Source: Alistipes indistinctus YIT 12060 (GTDB taxonomy: Bacteria; Bacteroidota; Bacteroidia; Bacteroidales; Rikenellaceae). From it: a stretch of 64,000 nucleotides of DNA. Positions 18,014-62,192 of the stretch are shown piece by piece. A program made the position numbers and the translations under genes. How positions within the stretch are numbered: position 1 is the first letter of the stretch; each line of letters begins with the position of its first letter. The stretch covers positions 1,054,001-1,118,000 of the forward strand of contig NZ_CP102250.1 in NCBI RefSeq assembly GCF_025144995.1. The letters run 5' to 3'. Below the pieces are notes generated by a model. It did not search any database. It saw only the letters and a list, made by a program, of their open reading frames with translations, and had not been told where the DNA came from.

Positions 18014-18016
18014 AAA

Positions 18017-18124
<108 letters not shown>

Positions 18125-18162
18125 AAATCTATACCAGATCACTCTGATTTATCGTAAAGTTC

Positions 18163-18201
18163 CTGACTCAAATACCGCTAACGGTATTTGACGATTCAGG
18201 A
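18163..18201 (-). other. Processing stem in 23S-5S spacer
   Basis: A perfect 9-bp inverted repeat (CAAATACCG/CGGTATTTG, loop CTAA, 18169-18190) is flanked by outer complementary arms (CCTGA/TCAGG). A long helix in the 23S-5S spacer is a plausible RNase III-type processing site. Confidence 0.6.
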
Positions 18202-18219
18202 TGAGAAAAGGGCCCTCTT

Positions 18220-21091
<2,872 letters not shown>

Positions 21092-21295
21092 CTTGTGTCC
21101 CCCCAAACCGGCTCGTTACCGCCCGGGGGAACCCCCTTTCTCATCCTTAAATCTGTCAAAGAACTTCAGGTCGCATTGACCGTGACAGTATTGCGGTTTC
21201 GCTCCGCTACCGCTTTGTGTGTGAACACAAACGGATACTGTTATAAAAAAAGTCTTTGAAGTATAAAGCAGCTATACCTTATGAATAAGCTCCAG
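21092..21295 (-). other. 16S-23S spacer lacking tRNA genes
   Basis: The ~204-base spacer contains neither tRNA-Ile nor tRNA-Ala: no T-loop GTTCGAATC-type sequence and no cloverleaf is found. It holds short inverted repeats, for example GTAGCGGAGCGAAACCGC near 21190-21212, probably processing structures. Confidence 0.8.
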
Positions 21296-22824
<1,529 letters not shown>

Positions 22825-55522: not shown

Positions 55523-56584
55523 CTACTCGTTCATGATCTTGTTCTGCAGGTTGATGCTCTCGAGGTGGATCGCTTCCATAATCGTCTTGAGGAATTCCGC
55601 ACTCAAACCGAGCTGTGGAGCCTGGGCCATCGCTTTATCCAGGATACTGCTCCAGCGACCGCCCTGCAGTACCGCCACATTATTCTGTTTTTTGACGCGC
55701 CCGATCTGCTCGGAGACCCGCATCCGGTTGCTGAGCAACTCAAACAGTTCGGCGTCGATCTGGTCGATCTGACGGCGCAAACCGGCCAACGCATCATGGA
55801 ACTCGGGCGTATCGGCCGTCGACTGCCTCCAGACGATACTACGCAACAGCGTTTCGAGATCCGACGGCGTCACCTGCTGCGAAGCGTCGCTCCAGGCCTT
55901 GGCCGGACAGATATGGCTTTCGAGAATCAGTCCGTCGTAGTAAAGGTCCGCACTTTTCTGAGCCACCTCCTGCAAGTAGGTACGGTTGCCGCAAATGTGC
56001 GACGGATCGCAGATCATCGGCAACTCCGGCATGCGGCTGCGCATCTCGATGGCAAGGTGCCACATCGGGTTGTTGCGGTAGAGCGAAGCCCCGTAAGCCG
56101 AAAACCCGCGGTGGATCAACCCGACGTTTTTGATACCCGCATTCCGGATACGCGTCACAGCGCCTACCCACAAGTCGAGATCGGGCGTCATCGGGTTCTT
56201 GACCAACACCGTGATATCGGTTCCCTTCAGCGCATCGGCAATCTCCTGAACACTGAACGGATTGCCCGTGCTACGCGCACCGATCCAGAGCATGTCGGCC
56301 CCGAATTCGAGCGCTGCCTCGACATGCTTGGCCGTAGCTACCTCCAGACCGAACGGCAGCCCCGTCTCCTTGCGCGCTTCGCTCATCCAGGCGAGCCCCT
56401 TAAGGCCCACGCCTTCGAACGATCCGGGTTTCGTACGCGGTTTCCAGATGCCGGCCCGAAGCACGTCCACCATGCCGGTAGCGGCGATTTGCTTACAAGT
56501 TTCTATGGTTTGTTCCTCGGTTTCCGCACTGCACGGCCCCGATATGATCAGCGGCCGTTTTGCCTTTAAATCAAATGTTTTCAT
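55523..56584 (-). CDS. aroF: DAHP synthase fused to chorismate mutase
   Basis: Combines the first shikimate-pathway reaction (PEP + erythrose-4-phosphate to DAHP) with the first Phe/Tyr-specific step (chorismate to prephenate). The 353-residue protein has an N-terminal DAHP synthase domain (1-250; SGPCSAE, WKPRTKPGSFEG, CDPSHICGN) and a C-terminal AroQ chorismate mutase (about 265-350; LRRQIDQIDAELFELLSNRM). No ACT domain is present, so feedback control must come from the mutase partner or from transcription. It is the last gene of the pheA operon, 163 bases after tyrA. Confidence 0.94.
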   Translation of the reverse strand: MKTFDLKAKRPLIISGPCSAETEEQTIETCKQIAATGMVDVLRAGIWKPRTKPGSFEGVGLKGLAWMSEARKETGLPFGLEVATAKHVEAALEFGADMLWIGARSTGNPFSVQEIADALKGTDITVLVKNPMTPDLDLWVGAVTRIRNAGIKNVGLIHRGFSAYGASLYRNNPMWHLAIEMRSRMPELPMICDPSHICGNRTYLQEVAQKSADLYYDGLILESHICPAKAWSDASQQVTPSDLETLLRSIVWRQSTADTPEFHDALAGLRRQIDQIDAELFELLSNRMRVSEQIGRVKKQNNVAVLQGGRWSSILDKAMAQAPQLGLSAEFLKTIMEAIHLESINLQNKIMNE

Positions 56585-56747: not shown

Positions 56748-57602
56748 TTACGGCAATATCCGTTTGATCGAATTGGCACGCACCATCAGGCTGCGCAATC
56801 CTTCGACATCGTCCTTCTCGATCATGCGGCGGAAAATCTGCAACTGGTGGATATGCTCCCGCAACACGTCGAGGATATTGTATTTGTTTTGCATGAAAAT
56901 CGGAATCCATGTCGCAGGCGAACTCTTGGCCAGACGCACCGTGCTTTCGAAACCGCCGCCCGCCAAATCGAAAATATGCTCTTCCTCGCGCTCCTTCTCC
57001 AAAACGGTCAGCGCCAACGCGAACGATGTGATGTGCGAGATATGGCTCACATAAGCGGTATGCGTATCCTGTTCCTCGGCGCTCATGTATTTAACCGGCA
57101 TCCCAATCTCGGCATAGATGCGTTCGACCGATTCTAATGCATCGGGATCGCTCGCCTCGCGGTCGCAAATCACGACCGTGCGACCGGCAAAAGCCCCGTG
57201 CACGGCCGCCTCGGGACCGCTGAACTCGGTACCCCACATCGGGTGCGTCGCCACAAAGCGGCCCCGGCGCGGGTGTTGTGCGATCACCTCACAAAGCTCC
57301 TGCTTGGTCGATCCCATATCGATCACCACCTGGCTATCGTCCACCAAATTCAGCACTTTGACCGCCAGCAGCGGGATCGAACTGACCGGAGTGGCCAATA
57401 CGATCAGGTCCGCCCCGGCCACTGCCGCGGGTAACTCTTCGAAACGGTCGACCAATCCGAGTTCCAACGCCTTGTTGCGGTTCGGTTCCGAATTATCCAC
57501 GCCGACCACTTCGGCTGCGAGCCCCTTCTCTTTGAGTGTAAGTGCGAACGATCCGCCAATCAGCCCTACGCCGACCACGGCGATCTTCATCTGTTTATCC
57601 AT
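56748..57602 (-). CDS. tyrA: Prephenate dehydrogenase
   Basis: NAD(P)-dependent oxidative decarboxylation of prephenate to 4-hydroxyphenylpyruvate on the way to tyrosine. The ~284-residue protein starts with KIAVVGVGLIGGSFALTLKEKG (Rossmann) and contains ATPVSSIPLLAVKVL, DMGSTKQELCEVIAQ, FVATHPMWGTEFSGPEAA and the catalytic-His region DTHTAYVSHISHITSFALA. Starts at 57644, 57602 and 57590 are possible. I chose 57602 because AAAGGG precedes it. It is third in the pheA-aminotransferase-tyrA-aroF operon. Confidence 0.93.
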   Translation of the reverse strand: MDKQMKIAVVGVGLIGGSFALTLKEKGLAAEVVGVDNSEPNRNKALELGLVDRFEELPAAVAGADLIVLATPVSSIPLLAVKVLNLVDDSQVVIDMGSTKQELCEVIAQHPRRGRFVATHPMWGTEFSGPEAAVHGAFAGRTVVICDREASDPDALESVERIYAEIGMPVKYMSAEEQDTHTAYVSHISHITSFALALTVLEKEREEEHIFDLAGGGFESTVRLAKSSPATWIPIFMQNKYNILDVLREHIHQLQIFRRMIEKDDVEGLRSLMVRANSIKRILP

Positions 57603-57669
57603 TTTTCCCTTTTCCATCGTCTGCCAGAGGTTCTGCACCTCCATTACAACCTAACTCCAAGCTGAACTC

Positions 57670-58845
57670 TTACATTTTCTCCCGAATGCGCTGTTTGGCC
57701 CGTTCGAGCACTTCGACCGGCGAACAGAGGCTGATGCGGATATAATTGTTACCCTCCGAACCGAAGATGCCTCCCGGGGTGATAAAAACGCCGCAACCGT
57801 AGAGCAACTTGTCCGAAAACTCGAAACAATCGCCCGCGCCTTCGGGCAGGCGTCCCCAGACGAACAATCCCGACTGGGGCTTGGCATAGCTACAACCGAT
57901 CAGATCGAGCAGTTCGAAACCTTTCACCTCGCGTTCGCGGTAAACCGCGTTCAGCGAACGGTACCACTCCTCGTCCAGGTCGAGCGCCTCGGCCGCCGCA
58001 GCCTGCATCGGATAAAACATGCCCGAATCCATATTGCTTTTGAAACGGATCACTTCGTCTATCCGCTCAGGAGCCCCGGCCAGCATCCCGATTCGCCAGC
58101 CGGCCATGCTGTGGCTCTTGCTCAGCGAATTGAGCTCTAGGGCCACCTCTTTCGCACCGTCCGTCGCCAACAGGCTTTCCGGATGCTCGTTACGGATAAA
58201 GCTGTACGGATTGTCATGCAGCAACAGGATATTATGCTTACGGGCAAAAGCGACCAGGTCGCGGAACAATCCTTCACGCGGTGCGGCACCGGTAGGCATG
58301 TGCGGAAAATTCACGATCATGATCTTCACGCCGTCGAGCCCGCCGCATTCGATCTCAGCGAAATCGGGCATCCAGCCGTTCTGCTCGCGAAGCAGGTAAT
58401 CGACACAAACGCCTCCCGAAATCGTTGCGGCGGAGCGATAGGTCGGATAACCGGGATTGGGGATCAGCACCTTATCGCCGGGGTTCAGGTAAGTCATACA
58501 AACATGCATGATACCCTCTTTCGAACCGATTAGCGGCAGGACTTCGGTCACCGGATCGAGCGTCACGCCGTAAAAGCGGTTGTACCACCGGGCAAAGGCC
58601 TCGCGCAGGATTGCCGTGCCTTTGTACGGCTGGTAAGCGTGCGTCCCGGGCTTGGCGGATTCGGCCGCCAGCCGTGCGATCACCTTCGGATGCGGAGGTT
58701 GGTCGGGACCGCCCACGCCGAGGCTGATAATATCCTGTCCCGCTGCGCGCATCTGGTCGATCTCCCGTAATTTTTTCGAAAAATAATATTCGCCTACCCC
58801 TGAAAGGCGTCCGGCTAACGCTATCTGTATCGGTTTGTTTTCCAT
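57670..58845 (-). CDS. Class I aminotransferase (aromatic/aspartate type)
   Basis: A 391-residue PLP enzyme of the aspartate aminotransferase fold. The cofactor Lys is in NSLSKSHSMAGWRIGM, with LIPNPGYPTYRSAATISGG, NFPHMPTGAAP and the C-terminal Arg in YIRISLC. Its place between pheA and tyrA implies it makes Phe and Tyr from phenylpyruvate and 4-hydroxyphenylpyruvate (or works on prephenate). Its own specificity is not decided by sequence, and diaminopimelate-type (DapL-like) enzymes share this fold. ATG 58845 was chosen over 58893. Confidence 0.88.
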   Translation of the reverse strand: MENKPIQIALAGRLSGVGEYYFSKKLREIDQMRAAGQDIISLGVGGPDQPPHPKVIARLAAESAKPGTHAYQPYKGTAILREAFARWYNRFYGVTLDPVTEVLPLIGSKEGIMHVCMTYLNPGDKVLIPNPGYPTYRSAATISGGVCVDYLLREQNGWMPDFAEIECGGLDGVKIMIVNFPHMPTGAAPREGLFRDLVAFARKHNILLLHDNPYSFIRNEHPESLLATDGAKEVALELNSLSKSHSMAGWRIGMLAGAPERIDEVIRFKSNMDSGMFYPMQAAAAEALDLDEEWYRSLNAVYREREVKGFELLDLIGCSYAKPQSGLFVWGRLPEGAGDCFEFSDKLLYGCGVFITPGGIFGSEGNNYIRISLCSPVEVLERAKQRIREKM

Positions 58846-58945
58846 GATCGGAACTTTTATTCGCTTTCGTATCTCTTTATTAATGCTAATCATTCAGGCA
58901 CCGCATGCGTATCCATGCATCTGCCCGGCAACGCCCGTCCCGGGA

Positions 58946-59782
58946 TCAGGAGTGTGTCGAAATTCCCCTTTTATACACACCGTAAACATGCAACTGCTGT
59001 GAATTACGCTCCATATCGGCCAACACCCGGTCGTACTCCTCCATACTGTCGAACTCCATATCGATATGGAACATGTAATGCCAAGGTTCGCTGGGAATCG
59101 GCGACGACTGCAGCTTGGTCATGTTGATCGTACTGTTTTCGATCGCGCGCAGCACACGCATCAACGAACCGTGCTCGTGATCGGTCTTGAAACAGAGCGA
59201 AGCTTTGTCGGCCCTGGACGGAAGCGGCTGGCCCGCAGGACGCAGCAGCAAAAAACGGGTGTAGTTGTTCTTGATCGAATGAATGTCGGGCACAACGATT
59301 TCGAGCCCGAACAACTCTGCGGCCAGATCGCCTGCGATGGCAGCCGCATTGCGTAATTTATGCTCGGCGATATGCCTGGCGCTAAGGGCCGTATCTTCGG
59401 TTTCGACCAGTTTCCAGCGGTGTGCGTCGAGGAAATCGACGCATTGCAACAGCGCCATCGGGTGCGACTGGACCTCTACGATATCCCCCAACTCCACGCC
59501 GGGGAGTACCATCAGGTTCTGGCGGATATGCAGGTAATATTCGCCCACGATCTGCACGCGGGCGTTATGCAGGATACCCAGGTTCGGCAGGATGGTGCCG
59601 GCGATCGAGTTCTCGACGGCCATCACGCCGTAATCGGCCTCACCGGTCTCGACCTGGCGCGCCACTTCGCGAAACGTCGCGCAGGGATGGATCGCGATAT
59701 CCGTTCCGAGGCAGCGGTGCGCCACAATGTGGTGGAAAGATCCTTCGTACCCCTGTATAGCGACTTTAAGTTGTCCTTTCAT
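58946..59782 (-). CDS. pheA: Prephenate dehydratase with ACT domain
   Basis: Converts prephenate to phenylpyruvate for phenylalanine. The 278-residue protein has a PDT domain (1-190; AIQGYEGSFHHIVAHRCLG, NSIAGTILPNLGIL, NNYTRFLLLRP with the catalytic TRF) and a C-terminal ACT domain (about 200-275). The usual ESRP Phe-binding motif reads MTKLQSSPIPSEPWHYMF, so feedback by Phe may be altered. There is no chorismate mutase here; that activity sits in the fourth gene of the operon. ATG 59782 is chosen. It is the first gene after the attenuator. Confidence 0.95.
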   Translation of the reverse strand: MKGQLKVAIQGYEGSFHHIVAHRCLGTDIAIHPCATFREVARQVETGEADYGVMAVENSIAGTILPNLGILHNARVQIVGEYYLHIRQNLMVLPGVELGDIVEVQSHPMALLQCVDFLDAHRWKLVETEDTALSARHIAEHKLRNAAAIAGDLAAELFGLEIVVPDIHSIKNNYTRFLLLRPAGQPLPSRADKASLCFKTDHEHGSLMRVLRAIENSTINMTKLQSSPIPSEPWHYMFHIDMEFDSMEEYDRVLADMERNSQQLHVYGVYKRGISTHS

Positions 59783-59833
59783 CTTGTTTTTCCCTTTGTC
59801 ATCGGTCGGTCCTCCGCCCGGGCCGTACCCCAC

Positions 59834-59865
59834 AAAAAATCCCGGCCTTGGGTAAGGACCGGGAT
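59834..59865 (-). terminator. Attenuator terminator of pheA operon
   Basis: On the minus strand ATCCCGG(T)CCTT pairs with AAGGCCGGGAT around an ACCC loop, with one bulged base. It is followed by six T residues, 52 bases before the pheA start. Its 5' arm (59865-59856) is also complementary to the antiterminator arm inside the leader ORF. Confidence 0.9.
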
Positions 59866-59918
59866 CGATATAGTTTCATCAAATGATTCGTTCGCTATTA
59901 ACAATGCAATCCCAGTCC
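59856..59918 (-). promoter_or_regulatory. Antiterminator pairing in pheA leader
   Basis: GGACTGGGAT (59918-59909, codons 20-23 of the leader peptide) pairs with ATCCCGGTCC (59865-59856), nine Watson-Crick pairs and one G-U. This is mutually exclusive with the terminator. CCAGT at 59970-59966 (leader codons 2-4) can pair with ACTGG in the same arm as a pause hairpin. Confidence 0.85.
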
Positions 59919-59975
59919 GCTTTTGGTAAAGTAGAAATAAAAATAATAACCAAAAAAAGGCGAATACTGGCCCAT
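59898..59975 (-). CDS. pheL: Phe/Tyr-rich leader peptide of pheA operon
   Basis: A 25-codon open frame, ATG 59975 to TAA 59898. It has Phe at residues 7, 8, 12, 14, 16 and Tyr at 4, 10, 11, 13, 15: ten aromatic codons in the first 16. It sits between a TAnnTTTG promoter box and the antiterminator/terminator pair, the exact position of an attenuation leader. If ribosomes stall at these codons for lack of charged tRNA-Phe or tRNA-Tyr, the antiterminator forms. If they reach the stop, the arm is covered and transcription ends. The gene symbol is by analogy. Confidence 0.88.
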   Translation of the reverse strand: MGQYSPFFGYYFYFYFTKSGLGLHC

Positions 59976-60005
59976 CGTTAATTCGTTACATGGTTTTCAA
60001 CTGCG

Positions 60006-60013
60006 CAAATGTA
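60006..60013 (-). promoter_or_regulatory. Putative -7 box of pheA operon
   Basis: The minus strand reads TACATTTG, 30 bases before the leader-peptide ATG. ATTG (one mismatch to TTTG) lies 18 bases upstream. The position would start transcription just before the leader. Confidence 0.65.
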
Positions 60014-60072: not shown

Positions 60073-61392
60073 CTACTCCCCGTCCGGTCCATCCGCGTCA
60101 TAATCCTCCAGTTGGGCCGGAAGCGATTTGGAAGCCTTCACCTGCAATTCGCGCAGTCTCTCGGCACGTCGTATCAGGTTTCCGCGCCCGGTTTTGAGTT
60201 GGTTCATCGCCTGTTCATACTTGCCCGTAGCCGCACCGAGGCTGCGGCCCAGATCGAGCAGCGTTTCCGAGAAGCCGACGAACTTGTCGTACAGGTTAGC
60301 CCCTTCAGTGGCAATCGCCAGCGCATTTTTGCTCTGCCCGTCACGTTTCCACAGGTCGTCCACGATCTTCAGCAGTGCGAACAGGTTCGTCGGGCTGCTG
60401 ATAATCACCTTACGGTTGTAGGCATCGCTCCACAGCGCGCTGTCCTGCTGCATCGCCAGCAGGAAGGCAGGTTCGTTGGGAATGAACATGATGACAAAAT
60501 CGGGCGACACGCTTTTATTTTGGCCGTTGAGCAGTGTCTGGTACGATTTGCCCGCCAATTCGGCAATGTGGCTGCGCACCGAACGGACATGCTCCTTCAC
60601 CGCACGCTGCTGCGCTTCGGGTGCATCGGTTTCGCTGTAAGTCACATAAGCCGTCAGCGACACTTTCGAATCGATAACGATCTGCTTGCCCTCGGGCAGG
60701 TTCAGAATCACGTCGGGCCGTAAATTGGCTCCGGTCTCATTATCCTTGATATTCTCCTGGGTCTGATAATGCACCCCTTTGATCAGGTTCGAACTGTCGA
60801 GGATCGTCTCGAGTATCATTTCGCCCCAGTCGCCCTGCACTTTCGAATTACCTTTGAGCGCGGCGGTCAGGTTATTGGCCTCCTGGCTCATGCGCAGGTT
60901 CATCTCGTTGAGGTGCCGGATCTCCTCTTTGAGCGAAAAGCGCTGCTGCGCCTCTTTTTCGTACACCTCCTCGACTTTTTTGCGGAACCCCTCTATATTG
61001 TCGCGGAACGGCTTAAGCAACAGCTCCAGCGATTCGCGGTTCGTCTGCTTGAACTGGTTACTCTTCTCCTCGAGTATCTCGGCGGCGAGATTCTTGAACT
61101 CCACGCGCTGCCGCTCCTGCAGGGCCGTCAACTCCTCTTTCTGGCGTGCAAGCGCCTCGTCGCGCGCCGCGAGTTTCTCCGCCAGGGTAGCCTGGCGTAC
61201 CGCCGCTTCGGTCAGTTGCACCGCCTGCCCGGAGAGCTGGTCACGCAACGTCCCGACCTGCTCTTCACGCTGAGCCGCCTCCTGCCGCAATGTTTCGCGT
61301 TCGAGAGAGAACCGCCGCAAAACCGGACGGTAAGCCAACACCGCCCCGGCCGCCCCTACGAGCAACCCTATCAATACCCACAATACCGTCAT
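60073..61392 (-). CDS. rmuC: DNA recombination protein RmuC
   Basis: RmuC limits inversions and other rearrangements; a nuclease-like fold is predicted. The 439-residue protein has one N-terminal membrane helix (residues 2-22, TVLWVLIGLLVGAAGAVLA), a long coiled coil (about 30-150), then the RmuC domain with QGDWGEMILETIL, LRPDVILNLPEGKQIVIDSKVSL and FIPNEPAFLLAM. The ATG at 61392 is preferred to one at 61548, which would add 52 residues unlike the family. It stands alone, divergent from rpe. Confidence 0.93.
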   Translation of the reverse strand: MTVLWVLIGLLVGAAGAVLAYRPVLRRFSLERETLRQEAAQREEQVGTLRDQLSGQAVQLTEAAVRQATLAEKLAARDEALARQKEELTALQERQRVEFKNLAAEILEEKSNQFKQTNRESLELLLKPFRDNIEGFRKKVEEVYEKEAQQRFSLKEEIRHLNEMNLRMSQEANNLTAALKGNSKVQGDWGEMILETILDSSNLIKGVHYQTQENIKDNETGANLRPDVILNLPEGKQIVIDSKVSLTAYVTYSETDAPEAQQRAVKEHVRSVRSHIAELAGKSYQTLLNGQNKSVSPDFVIMFIPNEPAFLLAMQQDSALWSDAYNRKVIISSPTNLFALLKIVDDLWKRDGQSKNALAIATEGANLYDKFVGFSETLLDLGRSLGAATGKYEQAMNQLKTGRGNLIRRAERLRELQVKASKSLPAQLEDYDADGPDGE

Positions 61393-61466
61393 ATGATCTC
61401 TGTTGAATCGGCAGCCCAATTGCCCATACCTTTTACAAAAATAGTGAATTTTGCCGATTTTTGATG

Positions 61467-61474
61467 TACCTTTG
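61467..61474 (+). promoter_or_regulatory. rpe: Putative -7 box of rpe
   Basis: TACCTTTG matches TAnnTTTG, 67 bases before the rpe start at 61542. TTTG at 61450-61453 is too close to be its partner, so support is partial. Confidence 0.4.
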
Positions 61475-61541
61475 CCGATACCCTGAATTATATGGATAAA
61501 ACCCCGCAGCGCCGGACGTTGCGGTACAAATGTTAGGCAAT

Positions 61542-62192
61542 ATGTCAAGAATCATATCACCTTCGGTCCTGTCGGCCGATTTTCTCCACCTGGGCCGCGA
61601 CACCGAAATGCTCAACCGCAGCGAAGCGGAATGGATCCACATCGACGTGATGGACGGCGTGTTCGTCCCGAACCTTTCGTTCGGATTTCCCGTGCTCTCG
61701 GCCATCCGCAAGGTCACCACGAAAGTGCTCGACACGCACCTGATGATCGTTGAACCGGAACGCTACATCGAACGCTTTGCAAAAGCGGGCGCCGACATCA
61801 TCACGATCCACATCGAAGCGACCGAAGACCTTCCGGCAGCCATCCGCACGATCAAGACCTGCGGCGTGAAAGCCGGCGTCTCGATCAAGCCGAAAACGCC
61901 TGTTTCAGCCATCGTGCCCTACCTAGACGATCTCGACCTGGTGCTCATCATGAGCGTCGAACCCGGTTTCGGCGGTCAGTCGTTCATCGAAGGTTCGACC
62001 GAGAAGGTGGCCGAGCTACGCCGTGAAATCGACCGTTGCGGTTCCGATACCGTGATCGAAATAGACGGCGGCATCACGCTTGGAAATGCAGGGGAGCAGT
62101 TCACCGCCGGATGCGACGTACTGGTGGCCGGCAATACGATTTTCGGCTCGGACGATCCGACACGAACCATCCACGACCTGCTGCGGGCCTGA
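61542..62192 (+). CDS. rpe: Ribulose-5-phosphate 3-epimerase
   Basis: Interconverts ribulose-5-phosphate and xylulose-5-phosphate in the pentose phosphate pathway. The 216-residue TIM barrel has ISPSVLSADFLHLG, WIHIDVMDGVFVPNLSFG, THLMIVEPERYIERFAKAG, IMSVEPGFGGQSFIEG and IEIDGGI with catalytic Asp residues, plus VLVAGNTIFG. ATG 61542 starts the family N-terminus; an ATG at 61530 adds four residues. The ABC-F gene follows 110 bases later. Confidence 0.97.
   Translation: MSRIISPSVLSADFLHLGRDTEMLNRSEAEWIHIDVMDGVFVPNLSFGFPVLSAIRKVTTKVLDTHLMIVEPERYIERFAKAGADIITIHIEATEDLPAAIRTIKTCGVKAGVSIKPKTPVSAIVPYLDDLDLVLIMSVEPGFGGQSFIEGSTEKVAELRREIDRCGSDTVIEIDGGITLGNAGEQFTAGCDVLVAGNTIFGSDDPTRTIHDLLRA

Follow-up and report, generated by a model that had tools for sequence, protein, structure and literature searches.

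The operon pheA-aminotransferase-tyrA-DAHP synthase/chorismate mutase of Alistipes indistinctus YIT 12060 is preceded by what appears to be a ribosome-mediated transcription attenuator that would sense the charging of both tRNA-Phe and tRNA-Tyr. On the strength of the sequence and the models built on it, we put the probability of this reading at about 0.92. The anatomy, conservation, covariation and register of the leader were established by reading the sequence and by computation. The proposed attenuator is familiar in mechanism and unusual in breadth and sharpness. All positions refer to the window, the whole stretch of 64,000 nt that was analyzed. The host genome is a single contig of 2.86 Mb, and its nearest named relatives are Alistipes and other Rikenellaceae.

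Anatomy of the leader and its operon

The leader lies on the minus strand. A putative promoter -7 box, TACATTTG (60006-60013), which we take to be of the Bacteroidota TAnnTTTG type, precedes a leader-peptide ORF of 25 codons plus TAA (59898-59975). The encoded peptide, MGQYSPFFGYYFYFYFTKSGLGLHC, contains five Phe and five Tyr residues. The regulatory run FFGYYFYFYF occupies codons 7-16 (59928-59957), as located by sequence and codon scan. Region 1 (CCAGTATTCGC, 59960-59970), assigned by folding and the swap test described below, is the predicted partner of region 2 when the leader is free of ribosomes. Region 2 (GGACTGGGATTG, 59907-59918) is the 5′ arm of the predicted antiterminator and was assigned from folds, swap test, register, codon scan and simulation. 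Within it, GGACTGGGAT (59918-59909) falls in leader codons 20-23. The terminator hairpin GATCCCGGTCCTTACCCAAGGCCGGGATT (59838-59866) was assigned from sequence, fold and relatives. Its 5′ arm is region 3, which also serves as the 3′ arm of the antiterminator. A U tract of six T occupies 59834-59839. This predicted intrinsic terminator (59866-59834), with its covarying helix, thus stands between the leader ORF and the first gene, about 50 nt upstream of the pheA start at 59782.

The original prediction had listed the promoter box, the 25-codon ORF with its five Phe and five Tyr codons, the antiterminator arm, the terminator and the six U residues, and all were found at the places given. The 10-bp complementarity that it described between GGACTGGGAT and the terminator arm is present, as nine Watson-Crick pairs and one G-U. 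The 1:2 pause pairing, proposed as CCAGT/ACTGG, is longer than proposed and can be extended to CCAGTatTCGC/GCGgACTGG. A consensus scanner called neither a terminator nor a promoter at the pheA leader, probably as an effect of rules that admit neither a bulged stem nor a promoter other than sigma-70. Of the 138 loci that carry the leader by the criterion given below, 116 have TAnnTTTG in the 110 nt before the leader ATG, against 5 of 137 in the 110 nt before that. An ATGTAA start-stop pair is also present in the 5′ UTR (59986-59991, minus strand), 10 nt before the leader ATG, and may be due to chance.

The leader is followed, on the same strand, by pheA (prephenate dehydratase, PF00800 by domain match, 58946-59782), a class I/II aminotransferase (57670-58857, start approximate; the ORF opens at 58893), tyrA (prephenate dehydrogenase, 56748-57644) and an aroF-type DAHP synthase with a C-terminal chorismate mutase domain (DAHPS/CM, 55523-56584). 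A seven-codon ORF, MTKGKTR (59779-59802, minus strand), overlaps the pheA start with its stop codon (ATGA), possibly for translational coupling.

Conservation among relatives

PheA relatives were taken from 80 named loci, from the genus (9 genomes), from a phylum sample (148 genomes, 128 with PheA) and from an order sample (99 genomes, 43 with PheA). A locus was scored as positive on two features. One was an ORF with an ATG start and no more than 45 codons, in which a stretch of 12 codons included 6 or more F/Y. The other was a hairpin at -8 kcal/mol or below, followed by T, at a distance of up to about 115 nt from the stop codon. The input was 196 loci, and 195 were tested after exclusion of L015, which has 27 nt upstream. 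Second copies were omitted (L082-L084 and L086-L088 from named genomes, L261 from the genome of L103), and L245-L248 are mere extensions of four misses. The order sample comprised 42 PheA genomes besides the own one, and G161 and G197, with partial PheA matches, were left out.

An F/Y leader ORF with a terminator was found before pheA in 138 of 154 testable loci (own genome, genus, named loci, class sample and order sample). The Phe/Tyr run is therefore conserved in related genomes, which had been set as a test of the original prediction. By group, the counts were 1/1 for the own genome, 2/2 for the genus, 27/32 for the class sample and 36/40 for the order sample. They were 30/35 for named Rikenellaceae and 42/44 for the other named loci, all named loci being the best matches to the window PheA and hence a sample biased towards it. 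The other named loci are mostly Chitinophagaceae, and one (L078) is labelled Ignavibacteriales. The class, order and named samples may overlap in species. Among the controls, 2/195 reverse complements, 1/195 stretches with reversed letters and 0/17 stretches upstream of hisG or ilvD in the genus were positive (8 hisG and 9 ilvD, L215 having been omitted from the nine hisG loci).

Outside the class, a single locus (L183 in G022) among 41 was positive; these 41 come from 95 PheA genomes and form an uneven sample, with 13 from one family (f16). One of them (L096) has a frame open throughout the stretch, and its gene start was possibly not reached. L183 may reflect either transfer or a wider ancestry of the attenuator.

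Sixteen of the 154 loci failed. Twelve had no F/Y leader by the criterion, two (L056 and L070) had the ORF with no hairpin found, and two (L142 and L173) showed leader and hairpin in the survey of 188 loci but start with GTG. Five of the 12 leaderless loci belong to Rikenellaceae (L018, L019, L021, L022 and L025) and are apparent losses of the leader; L018 and L019 are also without tyrA downstream. By eye, a TAnnTTTG-like box is seen near pheA in some of these five. In L161 and L170, pheA lies close behind another gene, which looks like aroA, and in L104 and L166 close behind an ORF.

Nine loci (L122, L130, L134, L137, L141, L147, L154, L160 and L256) carry two tandem F/Y leaders, each with its own hairpin of -8 kcal/mol or lower. 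They are candidate double attenuators before pheA, and L140 is probably a tenth.

Codon content of the leaders

A census was made of the codons of 133 leaders, with L104 and L184 excluded. At least two F and at least two Y were present in 130 of the 133. The means per leader were 5.4 F, 3.9 Y and 0.2 W, and 29 leaders had at least one Trp. In the 80 named loci, pheA is followed by a relative of the aminotransferase in 79, of tyrA in 75 and of DAHPS/CM in 47, the last count being limited because the flank was at most 3 kb. L059 has an F/Y attenuator but no tyrA relative within 3.8 kb from pheA on. As is expected of an attenuator, the leader ORF is short and rich in codons for the products of its own operon (5 F and 5 Y of 25 in the window), and this holds across the positive loci. 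Since the operon makes Phe and Tyr, joint reading of both amino acids fits, as had been suggested from the window alone.

Pairing of region 2 with its own terminator arm

In a swap test, we paired the sequence that follows the last F/Y codon with the terminator 5′ arm of its own locus and with that of every other locus. The set was 123 of 188 surveyed loci, with a leader score of at least 6, a terminator found and second copies removed. Two of its loci come from outside the class; of these, L183 looks genuine and L184 spurious. Region 2 paired with its own region 3 at a mean of -17.1 kcal/mol, compared with -11.8 kcal/mol for swapped arms. None of 20,000 permutations reached the own sum, either overall or within Rikenellaceae (30 loci), other named loci (40), the order sample (24) or the rest (29). 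When region 2 was shuffled 100 times, no more than 1% of the shuffles paired as well in 103 of the 123 loci. The own pairing was among the best 5% of swaps in just 40 of the 123 loci, because the arms have a common core among relatives. Matching changes in the two arms can be seen directly: GGACTGGGAT/ATCCCGGTCC in the window, GCGGTCAGGAT/ATCCTGACCGC in L027 and GGGCGGG/CCCGCCC in L030. Region 2 thus prefers its own terminator arm, and the antiterminator/terminator pairing claimed at the outset is conserved.

The 1:2 duplex behaved likewise, with an own mean of -16.3 kcal/mol against -12.1 kcal/mol for swaps (0/10,000 permutations, 123 loci). Folded up to the hairpin, the leader had the terminator in its lowest-energy structure in 109 of the 123 loci. 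In 29 Rikenellaceae sequences, 6 of the 9 pairs of the terminator helix show changes on both sides (5/500 shuffles reach 6), and such changes fill 28 alignment cells in all (0/500 shuffles). On a MAFFT alignment, some rows had lost the register of the 2:3 helix, and a higher score was obtained with a slide of -1. Formal counting of 2:3 pairs on this alignment was unsatisfactory because of compensated length changes, and the swap test was used instead.

These results bear on another origin of the hairpin, in which it is the terminator of the upstream gene, the pheA promoter lies downstream of it, and the F/Y ORF is a chance product of T-rich DNA. The upstream ORF (60073-61548) is indeed on the same strand and ends at 60073, and the spacer between it and the leader is T-rich. 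However, a relative of this gene lies upstream in only 3 of the 66 named attenuator loci with more than 1200 nt of upstream sequence. An F/Y ORF with terminator also recurs far beyond the reversed controls (at most 2/195), and region 2, which lies inside the ORF, goes with its own terminator arm. An upstream-gene terminator was rejected because relatives seldom share this upstream gene, and we give this origin next to no probability. Translation-mediated attenuation, the interpretation first offered for the window, is supported by both the relatives and the own-arm pairing.

Folding and ribosome register

At -42.1 kcal/mol, the full leader of the window adopts a fold with the terminator and a 1:2 hairpin, the latter enclosing the F/Y codons. 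When the 5′ part is removed, the leader forms a 12-bp antiterminator and the terminator is gone. In each case 5 of 200 shuffles were as good. These single-sequence folds thus surpass shuffles by no more than about 2 sd, and it is the relatives that carry the case. A 1:2 protector hairpin is predicted for the untranslated leader both by the full-leader fold and by the swap test in 123 loci.

In a codon scan, the assumed ribosome footprint reached from 18 nt upstream of the first base of the A-site codon to 12 nt downstream of it, and the RNA behind the ribosome was kept unpaired. With the A site at codons 4-16 (codon 16 being the last Phe), the probability of the antiterminator in the window was 0.69-1.00. 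From codon 17 onward it was at most 0.08. The probability of the terminator was 1.00 both at the stop codon and with no ribosome. The assumed footprint puts the switch exactly behind the last Phe codon of the window leader. The 2:3 antiterminator and the 3:4 terminator are mutually exclusive according to the folds, the swap test and the codon scan.

The same register is seen in the relatives. The antiterminator core starts at a median of 9 nt past the last F/Y codon (IQR 8-11), and at 7-12 nt in 104 of 123 loci. We simulated the nascent RNA with the transcript cut before the 3′ arm of the terminator, and 137 of 138 loci had the antiterminator on when the ribosome stood at the last F/Y codon. 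The mean probability of 2:3 pairing was 0.99 at this codon, 0.60 two codons on and 0.27 four codons on, compared with 0.72, 0.72 and 0.69 for shuffled linkers. Since pairing at the last F/Y codon is also frequent with shuffled linkers, what is informative is how sharply it is lost thereafter. A change from on at the last F/Y codon to off four codons on was seen in 107/138 real loci and in 76/690 linker-shuffled cases. If the off state is asked for only at the stop codon, the counts are 111/138 and 188/690, so that 27/138 real loci fail. The switch moves by about one codon when the footprint is assumed to reach 10, 12 or 14 nt ahead of the A site. The folding prediction under this assumption, therefore, is that region 2 is free when the ribosome stalls at the regulatory codons and covered when it reaches the stop.

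At equilibrium with the terminator complete and a ribosome at the last F/Y codon, the probability of the antiterminator was above 0.5 in only 35 of 138 loci, and that of the terminator in 112. In most loci, therefore, the prediction depends on the antiterminator forming first as the RNA emerges.

That the full leader at equilibrium already favors the terminator, and that it has alternative structures, would also suit a riboswitch or a protein-bound RNA in which the ORF is incidental. Yet the most constant feature of the leaders is an F/Y run at a near-fixed distance before region 2, which is readable only by translation. None of the Rfam 15 covariance models matched the pheA leader at the gathering score, and at E≤5 there was one chance-level match, with 12.6 bits against a cut-off of 55. 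A riboswitch, T-box or other Rfam family was accordingly rejected, and regulation by a ligand- or protein-bound RNA is extremely unlikely.

An arrest peptide is the other way in which a translated leader could act. TnaC is the known comparison; here the nascent peptide would bind free Phe or Tyr in the exit tunnel instead of metering tRNA charging. The aromatic run is conserved, as this would demand, and the leader is translated under either model. Against it, only 2 of 32 columns are invariant in an alignment of nine leaders (chosen from the 138), F and Y swap with each other, and the length of the run varies. What is conserved is the distance of the run to region 2. Moreover, stalling at high amino acid would invert the logic of the switch. 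We consider an arrest peptide very unlikely.

Proposed mechanism

For the preferred reading, attenuation by tRNA charging, we infer the transcription start, leader translation, its coupling to transcription, and termination with its response. Transcription would start just downstream of TACATTTG, and a ribosome would begin the leader ORF while RNA polymerase proceeds. When charged tRNA-Phe and tRNA-Tyr are plentiful, the ribosome would reach the stop codon and cover region 2, and the terminator would form. When charging of either tRNA is scarce, the ribosome would stall in the interdigitated F/Y run, its front edge ending just before region 2. The free region 2 could then pair with region 3 as it emerges, which would block the terminator and allow the operon to be transcribed. 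With no ribosome on the leader, region 1 would sequester region 2 and the terminator would form. The switch would thus follow an OR logic, with a shortage of Phe or of Tyr opening the operon.

Comparison with known systems

In E. coli pheL-pheA, a leader ORF with cognate codons and alternative 1:2, 2:3 and 3:4 structures precedes a terminator before pheA. The window leader has in common with it the short leader ORF, the alternative structures and the intrinsic terminator before pheA. E. coli pheL reads Phe only, whereas the window leader interdigitates Phe and Tyr, its operon also contains tyrA and DAHP synthase/CM, and its promoter is of the Bacteroidota type. The enterobacterial thr and ilv attenuators have leaders that read more than one amino acid. 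Reading of several amino acids is thus common to them and the window leader, but the amino acids and the phylum differ. Some attenuators in Bacteroidetes/Chlorobi were reportedly predicted by Vitreschak et al. in 2004 (FEMS Microbiol Lett).

The original prediction had hinted that such an attenuator would be new in Bacteroidota, and this part held only to a degree. The available portion of a 2021 study of Flavobacterium psychrophilum (PMC9723704) gives strong clues for leader-peptide attenuation before amino-acid operons, and describes structured 5′ elements without Rfam hits before pheA and hisG in other Flavobacteriaceae. That pheA element concerns the same gene and phylum as the window attenuator. 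As far as that portion goes, it was reported within one family; the present leaders extend to Bacteroidales, Chitinophagaceae and a class-wide sample, with codons, covariation and register. The Bacteroid-trp RNA (RF01692), a cis-regulatory RNA of Bacteroidetes, was listed in 2010 (PMC2864571) and has been likened to the E. coli trp leader (PMC6414381), and such attenuators have been modelled (PMC1183508). Bacteroid-trp belongs to the trp operon and has Trp codons, in contrast to the F/Y codons of the pheA leader, and RF01692 did not match the pheA leader at the gathering score or at E≤5. Among the papers listed by full-text searches of openly licensed literature, we recognized none on a Phe/Tyr leader attenuator across Bacteroidales or the class, and none is described in the accessible parts of PMC4833913, PMC8305728 and PMC7366714. 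The kind of attenuator is already known; the additions are its broad distribution, the combination of Phe and Tyr codons, the covariation and the register. The pheA leader, for which we found no model in Rfam, is a candidate RNA family.

We think it likely, though less so than attenuation in the window itself, that the aromatic operon of Bacteroidia was ancestrally, and is still widely, controlled by a joint Phe-plus-Tyr attenuator, which is tandem-duplicated in some Bacteroidales. If this is true, and with the parallel his and trp leaders described below, tightly coupled transcription and translation would be a main means by which the phylum senses amino acids. Attenuation by translation requires a ribosome that keeps up with RNA polymerase. 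Bacteroidota are usually described as not relying on Shine-Dalgarno sites. An antiterminator about 9 nt past the last regulatory codon would offer a natural probe of coupling and of the ribosome front edge in this phylum. The model also proposes how Phe and Tyr synthesis may be controlled in common gut bacteria, by one switch that reads both tRNAs.

Other amino-acid leaders

A run of six F/Y codons (six consecutive TWY) occurs at three further places in the own genome, of which one lies within a reading frame of 721 codons. On visual inspection, no leader with a terminator was apparent at any of these places, and they were rejected as further F/Y leaders.

Before hisG, an ORF with a His run, followed by a terminator as judged by eye, is present in all nine genomes of the genus (L213-L221, L220 being the own genome). 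The hisG leader of the genus is a candidate second attenuator. In these leaders, an arm resembling GGTAGGC was seen by eye over the stop codon of the His-run ORF.

RF01692 matched in 4 of the 9 genus genomes at E≤0.001, with one match above the cut-off and none in the own genome. All four matches show, by eye, a Trp-run ORF and then a terminator. The own genome has a WWW leader with a terminator, again by eye, about 2 kb before a trpE match. This stretch (L244, about 970-1250) carries the leader MNRIALNSNFWWWRSQLTSREC... and the terminator arm CTCACGACAG, and is Bacteroid-trp-like with no RF01692 match at E≤0.001.

The window also contains ilvD (PF00920) around 36842 on the plus strand. A scan for an Ile/Leu/Val-rich leader before ilvD gave none in the nine genus genomes. 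Genes for 16S, 23S and 5S rRNA lie at 18015-22824 on the minus strand of the window.
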